A stretch of DNA of 64,000 bases from an uncultured Pseudohongiella sp. (GTDB lineage Bacteria > Pseudomonadota > Gammaproteobacteria > Pseudomonadales > Pseudohongiellaceae): contig CACBCS010000008.1 in assembly GCA_902537815.1 (NCBI GenBank), positions 1 to 64,000 of the forward strand, read 5' to 3'. The translations under genes were made by a program, and so were the position numbers. Positions 34,189 to 43,127 of this stretch are shown piece by piece. Every line of letters starts with the position of its first letter. The stretch's first letter is position 1. Under the pieces are notes generated by a model. The model did not search any database. It saw only the letters and a list, made by a program, of their open reading frames with translations, and was not told where the DNA came from.

Positions 34189-36612
34189 CTAAGGTGAGCT
34201 GATTGGCTCGGGCAGGGCGTAGGCATAGACCCAACCCCCGCCCACTTCAGGCTCCTCGTCATCTTCATTGACCTGAGTTTCAAGCTGTAGAATGCCACCG
34301 CCTTCCGGCACCGTTATAACGACATACTGCCGTCCCGATTTCGGACTGATATAGCTCATCGGCGTCGCGGTTGAGGCGGCTGGCAACTCATCAGTCCAGA
34401 GTTCCTGGCCATTCAGGACATCGATGGCTCTGACTTTGCTGTCCGTTACGCCCGCGTTAATAATCAGTCCGCCTCCTGTGACCATGGAACCGGCGGTGTA
34501 GAACATGCCCATCGGCAAGGGCAATCTGGTGGGGATCCCTAAAGGCCCCATGTCGGTTGTGGTTCCCAGTGGACGGCGCCAGAGAACATCCTGACTGGCA
34601 AGATCGACCACGGCGATTTCCCCATAGGGCGGTTTGAGACAGGGAGCGAAAACAGACGACAGAAAGAAGAACGAATAGACAGCATAGGGCGTTCCGGCCT
34701 GGGCGCCGCCGATGCCGTAGTTGTACCCCGTTTCTGTTTCGGCCCTCGGAATGAGGCGCACGACAGAGGGGTTATGCAGAGAATTGACCACCATCAGGTG
34801 GTTGACCTCGTCCACAGCCACGCTGCCCCAGTTCATTCCGCCACCGACGCCCGGGTAATACAGTGAACCGTAACCGGTGGTGGGCGGAGTTAGGGGTCCC
34901 TCGTAGCGCATCCGCTTGAACTGAATGCGACAGGAAGCGTGATCAAAAGGCGTGATGCCCCACATGTCTGCTTCTCTGAGTCGTTCATGATCAAATCTCG
35001 GCATGCCCACCGAAAAAGGCTGAGTCGGGTCGGTAAATTCTTCCGGAATATCGGTCTGTGGCGTTGGCAGTTCCGCAACCTCGGTAACCGGCTCACCGGT
35101 TTCCCGGTCAAGGACAAAAATCTGTGCTCGCTTGGTCGGGACGATTACCACTTTACGCAGCGTGCCATTGATCGGGATGTCTGCCAGAGTCGGTTGTGAA
35201 GGAACGTCATAGTCCCAAATGTCGTGGTGCGTGGTCTGGAAATGCCAGCGCACGCGACCGTTTTCAGTGTCCAGCGCCACGACCGAACTGGCGTACTTTT
35301 CCATTGCTTCGCTGCGGTGACCGCCAAAATAATCCGGCGTTGCATTGCCTGTGGGGACGTAGACCAGTCCCAGCTCCTCATCCGTGCTGGTCAGGCTCCA
35401 GACGTTTGGCGTTCCCCGCGTGTAGGTCTCACCCTCCGCAGGAAGGCCTATGCGGTCCTCCCGTCCCATGTCCCAGGCCCATTTCAATGCACCGGTCACC
35501 GGATCGAAACCCCGAACGACGCCGGACGGTTCTTCGGTTTCCTGGTTATCCAGAACCCAGCCGCCTAAGACGAGAGTATCATTAGCGACAGTGGGGGGAG
35601 AGGTCACAAAATAGTAACCTGGTTTGATTTCCCCCATGCCCGTCAGCAGATTGACCTCTCCCTCATCGCCAAAGTCTGAGCAGGTCTCGCCAGTTTCCTT
35701 GCTCACCGCAATCAGCCTCGCGTCCGTTGTGGCCGTGATAATTCGCTCCGGACAGTTGCTGTCCGCCTGCTCTGGCGGGCTGGCATAGTAGGTGACGCCA
35801 CGGCAGGTGTCCCAGAACCCTATTCGCGCAGACTGGATTTCCGGATCATATCGCCAGCGCTCCTCGCCGCTATCCGGATCGAGCGCCAGAATGACGTTTC
35901 GACCGGTACACAAATAGAGCCCATCATCGATTTGAATCGGTGTGCCTTTAAATTCTCCGGGTACGCCTGTTCTGGTAGTCCATGCAGGCTCCATTTGTCC
36001 CACGTTGGTGGTGTTGATCTGTGCGGTGGGGGCAAAGCGTGTGCCGCGCTGGCTTGCCCCATAATGTCGCCACTGGCCTGTGTCATCGAAGACCTGCCCG
36101 GTGCCCGCTGCAGTGGGTACCTTGACCTCGTATCTGCCATTGGTGGCGAACAGGGCAACAACCAGAATTGCCAGGGCGGCGGCGACGGGACGGGTGGCCG
36201 GCAGCTGTAGTAGGGCATCAGGCTCTCGCTGCAGCAGACCCCGTCTGACTCTGGGTAACAGGAACCACAGGCCCAGAACAGTGAACAGGCCAACGCGCGG
36301 CATGAGTTGCCAGGGGTCAAGACCCACTTCGAACAGGGCCCAGAGGTAGGTCACACCCAGGAAAGCGCCGTACAGTTTTGCTCCCTCCGGTTTGCCCCGA
36401 AACAGCAGCAGGGCGACTGTGATCAGGAGCAGACCCGCACCCAGGTAGTAGGGCGAACCTCCGAGAAAGGCCAGTGTCCACCCCTGAAGGCTCAAGCCAA
36501 CCCCGCATAAAGCCAGTACCACAGCTAACAGCCGTGGTTTCACATAATTACCCTGTGCCTGAGACAACGAAATCTCTCCTGTAAACGTCCACTCGTGCGA
36601 AGATGATCGCAT
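34189..36612 (-). CDS. Membrane-bound PQQ-dependent dehydrogenase, glucose/quinate/shikimate type
   Basis: N-terminal TM helices; WRHYGASQRGTRFAPTAQINTTNVGQMEPAWTTRTG; LTSTDEELGLVYVPTGNATPDYFGGHRSEAMEKYASSVVALD; HHDIWDYDVPSQPTL; YYPGVGGGMNWGSVAVD. Confidence 0.9.
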   Translation of the reverse strand: MRSSSHEWTFTGEISLSQAQGNYVKPRLLAVVLALCGVGLSLQGWTLAFLGGSPYYLGAGLLLITVALLLFRGKPEGAKLYGAFLGVTYLWALFEVGLDPWQLMPRVGLFTVLGLWFLLPRVRRGLLQREPDALLQLPATRPVAAALAILVVALFATNGRYEVKVPTAAGTGQVFDDTGQWRHYGASQRGTRFAPTAQINTTNVGQMEPAWTTRTGVPGEFKGTPIQIDDGLYLCTGRNVILALDPDSGEERWRYDPEIQSARIGFWDTCRGVTYYASPPEQADSNCPERIITATTDARLIAVSKETGETCSDFGDEGEVNLLTGMGEIKPGYYFVTSPPTVANDTLVLGGWVLDNQETEEPSGVVRGFDPVTGALKWAWDMGREDRIGLPAEGETYTRGTPNVWSLTSTDEELGLVYVPTGNATPDYFGGHRSEAMEKYASSVVALDTENGRVRWHFQTTHHDIWDYDVPSQPTLADIPINGTLRKVVIVPTKRAQIFVLDRETGEPVTEVAELPTPQTDIPEEFTDPTQPFSVGMPRFDHERLREADMWGITPFDHASCRIQFKRMRYEGPLTPPTTGYGSLYYPGVGGGMNWGSVAVDEVNHLMVVNSLHNPSVVRLIPRAETETGYNYGIGGAQAGTPYAVYSFFFLSSVFAPCLKPPYGEIAVVDLASQDVLWRRPLGTTTDMGPLGIPTRLPLPMGMFYTAGSMVTGGGLIINAGVTDSKVRAIDVLNGQELWTDELPAASTATPMSYISPKSGRQYVVITVPEGGGILQLETQVNEDDEEPEVGGGWVYAYALPEPISSP

Positions 36613-36741
36613 AGATCGGGTCAATGCTCGATACGGTGTTGTCTGTTTTACGGGTTGTACCCTATTGCGCATTCTGCGATAGGCATAGACCTTCCCAGCC
36701 AGAGACTTTATGCTCTGTCGCATAATAAAAAGGAACTGATC

Positions 36742-38496
36742 ATGCCTTGTAACCTATCCCGAACCGCCCTGGTCACAGGGTTGGCACTGCTGGCCCCATT
36801 CGCGATGCACGCGCAGCATTCGCAGCAGCTGCTGGAGAGTTATACCCCCGTCACTTACACAGAAATTGAAAATCCCGACCCCAGCGAGTGGTTAATGTGG
36901 CGACGTACCCAGAATCACTGGGGCTATAGCCCGCTTGATCAGATCAACAAAGAGTCAGTGGGCGACCTCCGGCTGGCCTGGGCCTGGACCATGGAGCCGG
37001 GCATGCAGGAGACAACTCCGCTGGTACGAGATGGCATCATGTTCCTGCCTCAGGCCTGCGACTTTATTGAGGCAGTGGATGCCCGCGATGGAACTCCCAT
37101 CTGGGAATATCGACGTGAGCGGGTCGATCACGCAGCTTCATTGTCCTGTGCCAATCGCAATGCGACGCTCTATGGCGACAAGCTTTACATCGCAACCGGC
37201 GACGCCTATCTGGTGGCGCTGAGTGTCCTGACGGGAGAGGTGAGCTGGGAACGGCAGATCGGTGACTGGACAATTGGTCAGCACTATTCAGGCGGTCCGC
37301 AGATACTGGATGGCAAAGTGGTTGTCGGGATGTCCGGCTGCTATTACATCAATACCGGCTGCTGGATTACCGCACACGACCCGGAGACTGGAGAGGAGAT
37401 CTGGCGAACCAACACGGTTCCGAAAATCGGGGAGCCGGGCGGTGAGACCTGGGGCGACGTGCCCAATGAGGAGCGAAGGGGGGGCTCTGCGTGGATGCCG
37501 TCGAGCTACGACCCTGAGCTGGATATGATTTATGTGGGGGTTGCCGTACCCATTCCCTGGGGTGAAATTCAGCGGGATACCCGCGATGGAGATGTTCTGT
37601 ATACGAACTCGACCCTAGCGCTCAATGCCGACAACGGTGAAATTGAATGGTATTTCCAGTACATACCGGGGGGAAATTGGGATCTGGATCATCCCTTCGA
37701 ACGGATCATTGTAGAGTCAGAGGTGATTCCGTATGCCGATTCTGTCGACTGGATCAATCCGAATATCGTCTCCAATGAAAGTCGAAAGCTGATTACCGGT
37801 GTTCCCGGAAAAACCGGCATCGTCTGGACTCTTGATGCCGCCACCGGCGAGTTTTTATGGGCTAAGGAAACCAGCTATCAGAACGTCATTGTTGGTGTGG
37901 ATATCGAAAATCACAAAGGCATCACCAATGAGAATCTTGAGATTACCGAAATCCGCCAGCGGCGCTTCGTCTGCCCTTCTACCACCGGCGGTATCAACTG
38001 GAATTCGGTTGGCTACAGTCCTGATACGAACGCCTTGTATGTACCCAGTAACAATGTCTGCATGGATTACTACCTGAATCCTGTGAATCCTGTGCTTGGT
38101 GGCTATCACAGTTCCGCGACCCAGAGAAAACTGCCGCCGGAAGACTTCGACGGGCAGGTGGGTATGTTCTCCGCGATTGATGTCGCAACCGGTGAAGAAA
38201 AGTGGACTTATCGGCAGCGTGCTGGTGTTGCCGGTTCGGTGCTGACCACCGGCGGCGGCCTGGTTTTTGTCTCCGACGATGCGCGACGTTTTCGCGCCTT
38301 TGACGCGGATTCAGGAGAGGTGCTCTGGGAGCAGATTCTGAACTCCTCCGCGGGAGGGTTTCCGATGACTTATGAGCTTGATGGGGTACAGTATCTGGCA
38401 ATCGCTGCTGGCGGCGGGGTCAACTACCGGATGATGACGCCTGAAATCCGTCAGCGACGGGGTGGCAATATCCTTTACGTCTTCAGGCTGCCCTGA
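36742..38496 (+). CDS. PQQ-dependent dehydrogenase, methanol/ethanol family-like
   Basis: WLMWRRTQNHWGYSPLDQINKESVGDLRLAWAWTMEPG; NRNATLYGDKLYIATGDAYLVALSVLTGEVSWE; GGNWDLDHPFERI; ATGEEKWTYRQRAGVAGSVLTTGGGLVFVSDDARRFRAFDADSGEVLWEQ. Confidence 0.9.
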   Translation: MPCNLSRTALVTGLALLAPFAMHAQHSQQLLESYTPVTYTEIENPDPSEWLMWRRTQNHWGYSPLDQINKESVGDLRLAWAWTMEPGMQETTPLVRDGIMFLPQACDFIEAVDARDGTPIWEYRRERVDHAASLSCANRNATLYGDKLYIATGDAYLVALSVLTGEVSWERQIGDWTIGQHYSGGPQILDGKVVVGMSGCYYINTGCWITAHDPETGEEIWRTNTVPKIGEPGGETWGDVPNEERRGGSAWMPSSYDPELDMIYVGVAVPIPWGEIQRDTRDGDVLYTNSTLALNADNGEIEWYFQYIPGGNWDLDHPFERIIVESEVIPYADSVDWINPNIVSNESRKLITGVPGKTGIVWTLDAATGEFLWAKETSYQNVIVGVDIENHKGITNENLEITEIRQRRFVCPSTTGGINWNSVGYSPDTNALYVPSNNVCMDYYLNPVNPVLGGYHSSATQRKLPPEDFDGQVGMFSAIDVATGEEKWTYRQRAGVAGSVLTTGGGLVFVSDDARRFRAFDADSGEVLWEQILNSSAGGFPMTYELDGVQYLAIAAGGGVNYRMMTPEIRQRRGGNILYVFRLP

Positions 38497-39336: not shown

Positions 39337-39747
39337 TTATTGCCGCGTGCCGGTGATGGTGAGGTTGCCGGACTGGGTATACAGGGTGCCGGCGAACCGG
39401 TTCCCGTTAACGGTGCCATTGAAATTGAGGCGCTGCACAGACCCGGCCGGCTTCAGCGGGTTAGTCGCGTTTGCCGACCAGGACATGCGGCTGCCGGCGA
39501 GTTCGAGTTCATCGACCTGCAGACTGAGCTCTCCTTCCACCTTCACGCCACTTTTTTCGCTGATATGCCAGACTCCGGCGCGTTGCTGGCCAGGAAGCTC
39601 ATACACGACATCCCAGCTGCCCTCTGCGACATACGGGATATCGCAGCTCAGAAGAAAAAGAAACACGCAACCCACCATCAGCGGGCGGCGAGCTAATGTC
39701 AGGAAGGTTTTCGCTCCCAATGACTGGTGCATAGTTGTTTCGCTCAT
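39337..39747 (-). CDS. Hypothetical exported/lipoprotein-like protein
   Basis: VFLFLLSCDIPYVAEGSWDVVYELPGQQRAGVWHISE; ATGA overlap with upstream LysR stop. Confidence 0.55.
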   Translation of the reverse strand: MSETTMHQSLGAKTFLTLARRPLMVGCVFLFLLSCDIPYVAEGSWDVVYELPGQQRAGVWHISEKSGVKVEGELSLQVDELELAGSRMSWSANATNPLKPAGSVQRLNFNGTVNGNRFAGTLYTQSGNLTITGTRQ

Positions 39748-40700
39748 TGGACAAGGCGGCTGTGGCTAGCCGGAAGGATAACCGATCCCAGCGAGCTTTC
39801 GATGATTTCCCGAATCTCTTCGGCTAGCTGCTTGTAGAAGTTCCTGACCGGCGAAGTGTTACGCCAGACCAGCGCATGGTTGCGAACCACGTTGATGCCT
39901 TCCACATCAGTGACTCTTAGCTCTTTTTTATCCCTGATTTCTGATTTGACGTAGAGTGCAGGCAGAAAAGCGATGCCCATACCCATAACCACCATCTGTC
40001 TGAGGGTGTCGAGGCTGGTCCCCTCGTAATCTCTGCGGACTACTGCCCCTACACGCTCGCACAGCTCCGTAATTTGGCGATGGAACAGGTGGTGTTCGCT
40101 GATTGTTAGTACTGGCTCTCCAAGCAGATCCATGCGGTTTATTCGAGCCTTGCTCCCTAGGCGATGATCCTTGGCGAGTGCTAGTTTGAGCGGTTCCCTA
40201 AATAGGGGCGCGACGACAAGTTCTTTGGACATGATTGGTAGTGTGGTGAGAATCAGATCGTGTTGACCATTGATTAGGCCAGTTTCAAGATCACTGGGCG
40301 TGTCTTCGCGGACATAGAGTTTTAGCTCGGTGTAGCGATCGTGGACAGGATTTAGGATGTGGGGAAGCAAATACGGCCCAAGAGTTGGGGTAACGCCAAG
40401 TCTATAAGTTCCCATACCACCTCCAGAGAGTAGCGCGGCCTGAGTGGTAAATCCTTGCGCTTCCTCAAGTACACGTCGTGCGCTGAGCAGAAGTTCACGG
40501 CCCTGAGGAGTGGTGTTGATGCCTTTTCTGGTGCGTTCGAATAGTTGAATATTGAGCGCCTTTTCCATGACGCCTACTTGGTTGCTAAGTGTCGGTTGAG
40601 TGATGTTGAGGCGGAAAGCTGCTTGTCGGAAGCTGCCATACTCAGCCACCGCGGCAAAATACTGCAGCTGCTTCAGTGAGAGATTTCCCAGTGTATTCAA
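39744..40700 (-). CDS. LysR family transcriptional regulator
   Basis: LSLKQLQYFAAVAEYGSFRQAAFRLNITQPTLSNQVGVMEKALNIQLFERTRKGINTTPQGRELL wHTH; effector domain; TTG start. Confidence 0.92.
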   Translation of the reverse strand: MNTLGNLSLKQLQYFAAVAEYGSFRQAAFRLNITQPTLSNQVGVMEKALNIQLFERTRKGINTTPQGRELLLSARRVLEEAQGFTTQAALLSGGGMGTYRLGVTPTLGPYLLPHILNPVHDRYTELKLYVREDTPSDLETGLINGQHDLILTTLPIMSKELVVAPLFREPLKLALAKDHRLGSKARINRMDLLGEPVLTISEHHLFHRQITELCERVGAVVRRDYEGTSLDTLRQMVVMGMGIAFLPALYVKSEIRDKKELRVTDVEGINVVRNHALVWRNTSPVRNFYKQLAEEIREIIESSLGSVILPASHSRLVQ

Positions 40701-40701
40701 G

Positions 40702-40729
40702 TTGACACCACTGATTACCGGTCTATGTT
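40702..40729 (+). promoter_or_regulatory. Candidate sigma70-type promoter for the iota-CA/SulP genes
   Basis: TTGACA (40702-40707), 16-nt spacer, TATGTT (40724-40729). Confidence 0.45.
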
Positions 40730-40732
40730 GTA

Positions 40733-40749
40733 TATAGATAAAATCTATA
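40733..40749. promoter_or_regulatory. Candidate LysR-type operator (T-N11-A palindrome)
   Basis: TATAGAT-AAA-ATCTATA perfect 7-bp-arm dyad in the LysR/carbonic-anhydrase divergent intergenic region; contains T-AGATAAAATCT-A. Confidence 0.6.
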
Positions 40750-40845
40750 ACGAAATTCTGTTTATATCAATATTCTTTCATATAACAGCTTAATAAAATA
40801 GCAATTCGATCAAAACACCACGCATTTGCGAATAGAGAGACCATA

Positions 40846-41325
40846 ATGATTTCGAGTATTTCAGAAGCAGACATTGAGAAGGCACGCGAGTCTTGGGGTA
40901 ATGCCTTAATCGAGATTTCGATCGCTTTCGAGGAGCGTGGTATTGAGGCCGCGAGAAAACTAGCTAGTGATGCGATAGATAGCGTGTATGGCTATGGTCA
41001 TGGCCCAGTCCTATTTAAACCGACGATGGCCAGTGGAGAGCAAACGTTTCGTCCCACCAAAGAAGGAGCTTTGGCATATTTTGTTGGACACAGCGATGAA
41101 TATCCGCTCGACGGAGGCTTTGGTATTAAGGGATGGCGTAAAGTGGTGTCAGAGACCTCTGAATGCTTCATCGACGGAAATATTGCAATGTGGATGGGAT
41201 GGGTAACTTTTACAGATAAAAATGGATCGGTTACGCAAGTGGATAAAAGTTGGGGATATAAGAAAGATGAGGCTGGTGTGTTAAGGATCGTTCTACACCA
41301 TTCGTCCTTACCTTACTCCCCCTAA
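40846..41325 (+). CDS. Putative iota-class carbonic anhydrase (SnoaL/CaMKII-AD-like fold)
   Basis: ARESWGNALIEIS..FEE; DSVYGYGHGPVLFKPTMASGEQTFRPTKEGALAYFVGH; KSWGYKKDEAGVLRIVLHHSSLPYSP with terminal HHSS motif. Confidence 0.72.
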   Translation: MISSISEADIEKARESWGNALIEISIAFEERGIEAARKLASDAIDSVYGYGHGPVLFKPTMASGEQTFRPTKEGALAYFVGHSDEYPLDGGFGIKGWRKVVSETSECFIDGNIAMWMGWVTFTDKNGSVTQVDKSWGYKKDEAGVLRIVLHHSSLPYSP

Positions 41326-41407
41326 AATCTATGTCGCTCTTGGGCGGATGGCTAGAGTAGAGATTTTCGGAACTTTGTGTTTGTTCAGACAAGCTAGGAA
41401 GACCTAA

Positions 41408-43072
41408 ATGATAGATTTCAAAACAAAAGACCTCAAGGGAGACCTTTTTGGTGGGCTTACCGCGGGCGTCGTTGCGTTGCCATTAGCTCTGGCTTTCGGT
41501 GAGGCTTCAGGCGCGGGCCCAATTGCCGGTTTATACGGCGCAATCTTCGTTGGTTTTTTTGCATCTCTATTTGGTGGCACAGGCTCTCAAGTAACGGGAC
41601 CTACTGGACCTATGGTTGTTGTCTTTGCGGGCGTTTTTGCGACGCTGGACGGCAATCCTTCTCTTGTGTTTACCACGGTTGTCCTGGCCGGTGCTATACA
41701 GGTAGCTCTGGGAGTTTTTAAGCTTGGCCAATACATCCGATTGGTACCCTATCCAGTGATATCAGGATTCATGAGTGGCATCGGCTGCATAATCATCGCG
41801 CTTCAGACCTCTCTTCTGCTTGGCCATGAACCGAGAGACAGCGGAACCATCGGTGCGCTTATGGAAATTCCTCGTGCTGTGGCTGACCCAAACATTGCGG
41901 CGCTAATTCTGGGAGTGCTAACGCTTTTGATTGCGTTCAAATGGCCGGCGAGACTGGCTAAAATCGTGCCTCCACCCCTAGCGGCTCTGATTATTGGCAC
42001 GCTTGCCAGTCTTTTCCTGTCCGGCGCTCCGACTCTGGGTGACATTCCCACAGGATTACCTAGTTTCATCATGCCTAGCTTTAATCAGGAAACATTTTTG
42101 ATCGTTCTCCAAGCAGCTATAACCTTGGCGCTACTCGGGTCAATCGATAGCTTGCTTACGTCGCTGGTGGCAGACAATATGACTCGCACTCGGCATAACT
42201 CGAATCGAGAGTTAATCGGACAGGGTATCGGTAATATGGTGGCCGGTCTATTCGGAGGTATAGCAAGCGCCGGTGCGACCATGAGAACGATGATCAACAT
42301 CCGAACTGGTGGTACTACTAAGATTTCTGGAATGTTCCACAGCGTCTTCTTGCTAGCAATAGTGTTAGTCCTAGCCCCTTTGGCAGAAAAAATCCCCCAT
42401 ACTGTGCTTGCGGGAATTCTTATAAAAACTGGATGGGACATTATTGATCGTGCTTATATTCTCAAGGCTCATCGTGGCCCACGTTGGGATCTCGCGCTAA
42501 TGCTGCTAGTCCTGACGATGACCGTCTTTGTGGATCTTATCCAAGCTGTTGGTGCCGGCGTGGTGCTAGCTTCTCTCGCCTTCGTGAAACAGATCGCCGA
42601 TGAACAATTGAAGTCGTTGCGAGACATTGCTGATGAAAAATTATCCACGAATTTTTCTGATGAAGAGACAAAATTAATAACTGATGCGAATAATCGCATT
42701 AACGTATTTGACTTCGGTGGACCACTTAGCTTTGGAGCTGCGGCTGATTTCGGCTACCAAATACGAGAGAAGTCAAAAGGCCCTAGTAAGGTGATGGTCT
42801 TAGACTTTTCGAAGGTACCTTTCTTAGATGTGTCGGCGGCACGCGCAGTACAAACTGTTGCCGAAGACGGAAAGGTCTCGAATAAATTGGTTTTCATTTC
42901 AGGGATGACTGATCAGATCCGTAAAATGCTTACGGATCTGATGGGCGAGATAGTGCCTGTAGAACACTTTTTTGATTCGCGCCGCAATGCCATTGCCGCC
43001 GCAGTCGAACTCTTGGAGGATCCAGTAGAAAACTCGCCCAAAGAGTCTAACACCAAGCCTTCGCCCACCTGA
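41408..43072 (+). CDS. SulP family inorganic anion (bicarbonate/sulfate) transporter with STAS domain, BicA-like
   Basis: LKGDLFGGLTAGVVALPLALAFGEASGAGPIAGLYGAIFVGFFASLFGGTGSQVTGPTGPM; C-terminal STAS VMVLDFSKVPFLDVSAARAVQ. Confidence 0.9.
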   Translation: MIDFKTKDLKGDLFGGLTAGVVALPLALAFGEASGAGPIAGLYGAIFVGFFASLFGGTGSQVTGPTGPMVVVFAGVFATLDGNPSLVFTTVVLAGAIQVALGVFKLGQYIRLVPYPVISGFMSGIGCIIIALQTSLLLGHEPRDSGTIGALMEIPRAVADPNIAALILGVLTLLIAFKWPARLAKIVPPPLAALIIGTLASLFLSGAPTLGDIPTGLPSFIMPSFNQETFLIVLQAAITLALLGSIDSLLTSLVADNMTRTRHNSNRELIGQGIGNMVAGLFGGIASAGATMRTMINIRTGGTTKISGMFHSVFLLAIVLVLAPLAEKIPHTVLAGILIKTGWDIIDRAYILKAHRGPRWDLALMLLVLTMTVFVDLIQAVGAGVVLASLAFVKQIADEQLKSLRDIADEKLSTNFSDEETKLITDANNRINVFDFGGPLSFGAAADFGYQIREKSKGPSKVMVLDFSKVPFLDVSAARAVQTVAEDGKVSNKLVFISGMTDQIRKMLTDLMGEIVPVEHFFDSRRNAIAAAVELLEDPVENSPKESNTKPSPT

Positions 43073-43127
43073 ATATTCCAGGCACACGACTAACTTTATT
43101 CGTAAGTGTATTGAAGAATTGCGCACC

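Follow-up and report, generated by a model that had tools for sequence, protein, structure and literature searches.

An iota-class carbonic anhydrase at the beta-class position of a LysR/BicA-like SulP locus in Pseudohongiella

We analyzed a stretch of 64,000 nucleotides (positions 1 to 64,000 of contig CACBCS010000008.1, hereafter the window) from an uncultured Pseudohongiella sp. The window harbors a locus composed of a gene for an iota-class carbonic anhydrase (iota-CA), a BicA-like SulP transporter gene downstream of it, and a divergently oriented gene for a LysR-type regulator. Comparison with other genomes revealed that the position between regulator and transporter is normally occupied by a zinc-dependent beta-class carbonic anhydrase (beta-CA), which the iota-CA replaces here. 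This exchange at a fixed site in a LysR/SulP unit is the new finding of the present study; it becomes visible only when other genomes are considered and was missed by an earlier reading of the window alone (the sequence-only reading). The locus is probably a LysR-regulated bicarbonate-supply unit of a heterotroph, in which a metal-free iota-CA has taken the place of the zinc enzyme.

Exchange of carbonic anhydrases at a fixed position

Across the genus of the window and two other gammaproteobacterial families, the LysR/SulP unit normally contains a zinc beta-CA, identified as PF00484. Such units (G014, G011, G020, G497, G637, and others) share with the window the LysR, the SulP transporter, the gene order, and the type of palindrome upstream of the operon, but encode the beta-CA where the window has the iota-CA. 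Among the genus loci with this LysR, 18 had the arrangement LysR-betaCA(-SulP), 7 (including the window) LysR-iotaCA-SulP, and 7 LysR-SulP without a carbonic anhydrase, whereas no locus contained both enzyme types. The order LysR/iota-CA/SulP was thus found again in six further congeneric genomes, and a neighborhood analysis bore out the expected conservation of gene order across relatives. The proposal of a three-gene unit with an iota-CA therefore holds for the clade of the window, but not as the widespread form, which has a beta-CA in the middle. The mutual exclusion of the two enzymes rests on these counts; the associated Fisher p values are inflated by shared ancestry and were calculated with 29 instead of 28 loci for family f155 (see below).

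The seven iota-CAs of the genus form a single clade (support 100/97). In the trees of LysR and SulP, the beta state is scattered among the other branches, the deepest ones among them, which suggests that the beta-CA was the ancestral state of the unit. The exchange is illustrated by the congener G014, which has a beta-CA at the identical position. Its 5' and 3' flanks are each 94% identical to those of the window, but between them the carbonic anhydrases are non-homologous and the SulP genes share 77% DNA identity. Identity drops inside lysR at about 40100 and returns near 43110, so that the differing segment spans approximately 40100 to 43110 and is bordered by sequence that is ~94-97% identical. 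This profile is as expected from homologous exchange of a segment carrying the carbonic anhydrase and SulP genes. Because the flanks of G014 nest with iota-bearing genomes, it is most parsimonious to suppose that this congener regained a beta-CA version, a direction deduced from the nesting.

No beta-CA was found in six of the seven genus genomes with an iota-CA locus. If each of the six had one, the probability of missing all of them through genome incompleteness would be ~1e-5.

The carbonic anhydrase belongs to a predicted cytosolic branch of COG4337

The three genes were confirmed at the positions and on the strands reported before, and the quoted segments (GYGHGPVLFKPT, TKEGALAYFVG, LHHSSLPYSP, and the first transmembrane stretch of SulP) had been read correctly. 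The gene at 40846 to 41325 (plus strand) encodes a protein of 159 amino acids. Its identification as an iota-CA is endorsed by profile search, structure matches, and an AlphaFold model alike. The protein matched the NCBIfam model of metal-independent carbonic anhydrases (NF047901) with an E value of 1.2e-57; this match lies under the strict cut-off of 350 bits and starts at position 50 of the 205 model positions, since the N-terminal part is absent from the window protein. The two solved metal-free iota-CAs in the Protein Data Bank (PDB), 7c5v and 7c5x, were matched with E values of 1.8e-47 and 2.3e-80, respectively. The AlphaFold model (pLDDT 91.9) has the cone-shaped alpha+beta barrel fold and superimposes on 7c5v in Foldseek with a TM score of 0.96 and an rmsd of 0.9 Å.

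The closest characterized proteins are all2909 of Anabaena (7c5v) and Bn86287 of Bigelowiella (7c5x) (PMC8132391), with which the window enzyme shares the fold, the Thr/Tyr/His/Ser active site, and the HHSS motif, at 49% identity in the structural alignment. The alignment equates Thr60 (41023 to 41025) and Tyr78 (41077 to 41079) with the catalytic Thr106 and Tyr124 of all2909; within the HHSS motif (residues 151-154, 41296 to 41307), His151 and Ser153 correspond to His197 and Ser199. All four residues are present, and they are invariant in the 67-69 relatives that have a residue at the respective position. Their mutation in all2909 and Bn86287 abolished or strongly reduced activity (PMC8132391). 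The window protein may catalyze metal-free hydration of CO2.

The fold family proposed by the sequence-only reading stood as far as the iota-CAs of COG4337 are concerned, but not for the CaMKII_AD/COG4875 branch. A non-CA CaMKII_AD/SnoaL assignment was rejected, as there were no Pfam matches and the fold match was specific to iota-CA. COG4337 has no Pfam model, and Pfam-based surveys of carbonic anhydrases consequently miss this family.

Signal peptides have been reported on most bacterial COG4337 proteins (PMC8132391). In contrast, a crude hydrophobicity test detected no N-terminal hydrophobic segment or signal peptide in the window protein, and with the same test nearly all members of its marine branch also lack a hydrophobic N terminus. 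We therefore consider this branch to be cytosolic. The window enzyme further differs from the characterized COG4337 iota-CAs in that its gene shares an operon with that of a bicarbonate-type transporter.

Several other COG4337 genes were encountered. In HIMB59-type alphaproteobacteria (L049-L060, e.g., L059:6001-6462), the iota-CA gene comes immediately after a gene for a farnesyl/geranylgeranyl diphosphate synthase, which is preceded, in opposite orientation, by a Bac_rhodopsin gene (PF01036, E value of 4.6e-44). On a conjugative IncF plasmid of Klebsiella pneumoniae (NZ_CP143503.1, L302:6914-7474), a COG4337 gene with a longer N terminus is surrounded by insertion sequences, IS26 among them.

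The BicA-like transporter and the LysR-type regulator

Eighty-two nucleotides downstream of the iota-CA gene is the gene for a SulP transporter with a STAS domain (41408 to 43072, plus strand; 554 amino acids). Both domains were recognized by Pfam (PF00916, 1.3e-88; PF01740, 7.9e-10). The transporter groups with BicA, as had been supposed, and not with sulfate transporters: it scored 518 bits against BicA, as compared to 307 bits against DauA and 282 bits against a sulfate permease. The NCBIfam BicA model (NF050096) was matched with an E value of 2.4e-155. Across the transmembrane as well as the STAS region, no structure or family was matched better than BicA (PDB 6ki1; 1.6e-100, as compared to 4.6e-39 for the next solved relative), and the alignment shows conservation of the ID.LLTS.VAD and AGATM regions. 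These similarities point to bicarbonate as the putative substrate. Unlike BicA, the window transporter is found in a heterotroph in which no RuBisCO was detected.

The regulator (39744 to 40700, minus strand; 318 amino acids) is divergent from the CA/SulP pair and has the Pfam domains LysR_substrate (7e-44) and HTH_1 (1.1e-20). Control of the CbbR/CmpR type had been proposed for the locus. This proposal found partial support: the regulator is encoded at a CA/SulP locus with a single conserved operator-like palindrome, but the protein itself is OxyR-like. The NCBIfam model for OxyR (3.5e-57) was matched better than that for CbbR (1.6e-32), which ranked under both OxyR and CynR, and in the PDB OxyR 4x6g (5e-40) preceded the Rubisco-operon regulator 5y2v (1.6e-25). 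By these comparisons, the regulator lies nearer to the OxyR/CynR/CbbR models as a group than to any single named regulator. The cysteine pair of the OxyR peroxide sensor is incomplete: the position of the peroxidatic Cys199 is occupied by Leu, whereas a Cys is present at the position of Cys208 (alignment EHHLF...ELC). The same motif was seen in all close LysR orthologues that could be read there.

The divergent promoter region (40701 to 40845) contains a perfect 17-nt palindrome, TATAGATAAAATCTATA (ATAG-N7-CTAT, 40733 to 40749), as a candidate LysR operator. It is the sole occurrence of this motif in the window. Within the genus, the intergenic region next to LysR contains this motif in every iota locus, every CA-less locus, and part of the beta loci; most loci of another family have it as well. 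This pattern fits a single regulator governing whichever carbonic anhydrase occupies the locus. The regulator would bind this palindrome and may respond to low CO2/HCO3-.

A second association in another family

A class-wide search with SulP, and only this search, led to a second case. Outside the genus, none of the 59 loci fetched by sequence had an iota-CA within 6 kb of a BicA-like SulP. In family f155, 28 of the 30 loci read contain the LysR/betaCA/SulP unit. In the remaining two genomes, G288 (100% complete) and G563 (99% complete), an iota-CA gene lies beside the same LysR, on its far side; the encoded enzymes are 73% and 70% identical to that of the window, respectively. No beta-CA was found anywhere in the two genomes, and no iota-CA was present beyond LysR in 20 beta loci fetched with more far-side sequence. 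Because the gene order differs and the tree separates the two groups, it is likely, though not proven, that the association of iota-CA with LysR was gained independently in the genus and in f155. A single origin is disfavored by the tree, although an AU test did not reject one clade for both iota-CA groups (p 0.215). Within f155, several genomes (L311, L312, L315, L320, and L321) have a doubled beta-CA, usually as a doubled betaCA-SulP pair, beside one LysR; the second SulP is only ~30% identical.

Link to zinc starvation

Stand-alone relatives of the window enzyme in roseobacters, also cytosolic, are encoded next to a ZigA-type COG0523 chaperone, ThrS, HisI, AztA, and a Zur-like repressor, and Zur-box-like palindromes with 12 or more of 13 matches were almost restricted to these zinc-starvation-type loci. 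Both observations support a role of the iota-CA as a zinc-sparing isoenzyme. Clusters of COG0523 with zinc-independent paralogues are known, and like those clusters the roseobacter loci combine COG0523 with ThrS and HisI paralogues; however, the carbonic anhydrase listed there is of the gamma class and not an iota-CA (PMC2770081). The window locus also departs from them: a scan that included 40701 to 40845 retrieved no Zur-box-like site, and control of this locus by Zur was rejected. For this reason, the iota-CA seems to have been absorbed into a carbon-regulated unit in the window.

Many COG4337 iota-CAs are labelled "phosphoribosyl-AMP cyclohydrolase" by NCBI, for example, L301:8995-9468 (Phaeobacter inhibens plasmid NZ_CP081236.1) and L304:7998-8471. 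This is apparently a misannotation that occurs beside the true hisI paralogue in zinc-starvation clusters. Stand-alone iota-CA genes of congeners were found next to a gene for a MerC-domain membrane protein (PF03203) in L010 and L016, from two congeners, and behind the gene for a MacB/FtsX-like ABC permease in L218, L219, and L064 (G076, G062, and G073), with an ABC ATPase gene before the permease gene where identified. We take the latter arrangement to resemble zinc-starvation-induced operons of Pseudomonas.

Genomic and metabolic setting

The genome of the window is a 2.1-Mb metagenome-assembled genome (MAG) with 71% completeness, and its close relatives are gammaproteobacterial, apparently marine, MAGs. 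A RuBisCO large chain was found neither in this genome (G000, at that completeness) nor in 82 of the 84 genus genomes, in support of the heterotrophic host supposed before. A role of the unit in an autotrophic CO2-concentrating mechanism was rejected on this ground. In the two other congeners, a member of the RuBisCO large-chain family, possibly a RuBisCO-like protein, is encoded (G085:C31:7969-8799 and G075:C76:2878-3708). Next to the locus, at 34189 to 38496, the window contains a divergent pair of genes for PQQ-type dehydrogenase-like proteins (844 and 613 amino acids, ~24-26% identical to each other), and the pair is kept beside the CA/SulP locus in close relatives.

Proposed function and alternative explanations

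In the bicarbonate-supply unit that we consider probable, the BicA-like SulP would import HCO3-, while the cytosolic iota-CA would convert diffusing and respiratory CO2 into HCO3-. Together they would feed HCO3--dependent carboxylases and contribute to pH balance when CO2 is scarce. The beta-CA would have been exchanged for the unrelated iota-CA under the same regulator, with zinc saving as the probable selective reason. CO2 hydration has been observed for the Anabaena and Bigelowiella enzymes, but HCO3- dehydration was not clear (PMC8132391); a hydration-directed enzyme next to an importer would limit the back-leak of imported HCO3- as CO2.

Several points weigh against this explanation. One of the iota-locus genomes (G010) keeps a beta-CA elsewhere, and the missing beta-CA of the window genome is weak evidence by itself, given its completeness. 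Of 15 genomes tested, 14 encode a gamma-CA-like protein, so that the iota-CA need not be the only carbonic anhydrase; our claim is therefore replacement of the beta-CA. Zinc sparing is argued from relatives, the window locus being devoid of a Zur-box-like site. In addition, the SulP score is under the BicA equivalog cut-off of 880 bits in NCBIfam, which is why we refer to it as BicA-like, and substrates vary within the family.

The score and this functional mixture would be compatible with SulP transporting sulfate or an organic anion, its carbonic anhydrase neighbor reflecting something else. Such a function appears improbable, because the BicA score of the transporter exceeds its scores for DauA and sulfate permease by some 200 bits and a carbonic anhydrase of some class adjoins SulP in most orthologous loci. 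It is slightly more improbable still that a mobile iota-CA gene inserted into the operon as a passenger, with no functional coupling to SulP. COG4337 genes are mobile and occur on conjugative plasmids, several congeners have a stand-alone iota-CA elsewhere, and some loci consist of LysR-SulP without a carbonic anhydrase; yet the iota-CA occupies the exact site of the beta-CA of relatives in the same orientation, has kept its active site intact across seven species that diverge to ~80% protein identity, and in the second family is found beside the same LysR only where the beta-CA is gone.

The most serious competitor, still unlikely, is that the locus serves pH/CO2 homeostasis rather than carbon supply, in that the iota-CA hydrates respiratory CO2 and SulP sends HCO3- out or exchanges another anion. 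The failure to find RuBisCO implies that a high demand for inorganic carbon is missing, exchangers exist among the SLC26/SulP proteins, and the hydration bias of the published enzymes (PMC8132391) would suit such a role. However, the nearest match of SulP is BicA, whose import activity depends on Na+, and a carbonic anhydrase/transporter pair governed by LysR resembles low-CO2 regulons. Heterotrophs, too, need HCO3-, namely, for biotin carboxylases and carbamoyl phosphate.

Considering the genus and f155 together, we tentatively propose, with somewhat less confidence than an even chance would warrant, that iota-CA has at least twice displaced the zinc beta-CA as the cytosolic carbonic anhydrase that marine heterotrophs combine with a regulated importer of bicarbonate. 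This would provide a zinc-free supply of inorganic carbon, and a largely hydration-directed enzyme would also limit the loss of HCO3- as CO2.

Significance

A limited search of the COG4337 literature, which is no proof of novelty, retrieved no description of an operon with a transporter. Most bacterial metal-free carbonic anhydrases had been regarded as exported proteins; in the present case, a predicted cytosolic branch stands in for a zinc beta-CA. Closely related genomes that carry either enzyme under the same regulator represent matched natural alleles. They allow one to ask whether a metal-free carbonic anhydrase can carry the CO2/HCO3- chemistry of a cell and whether a shortage of zinc is the driving force of the exchange. 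The exchange is thus a natural experiment on how cells manage without zinc, and it is relevant to how trace metals limit the oceanic carbon cycle.

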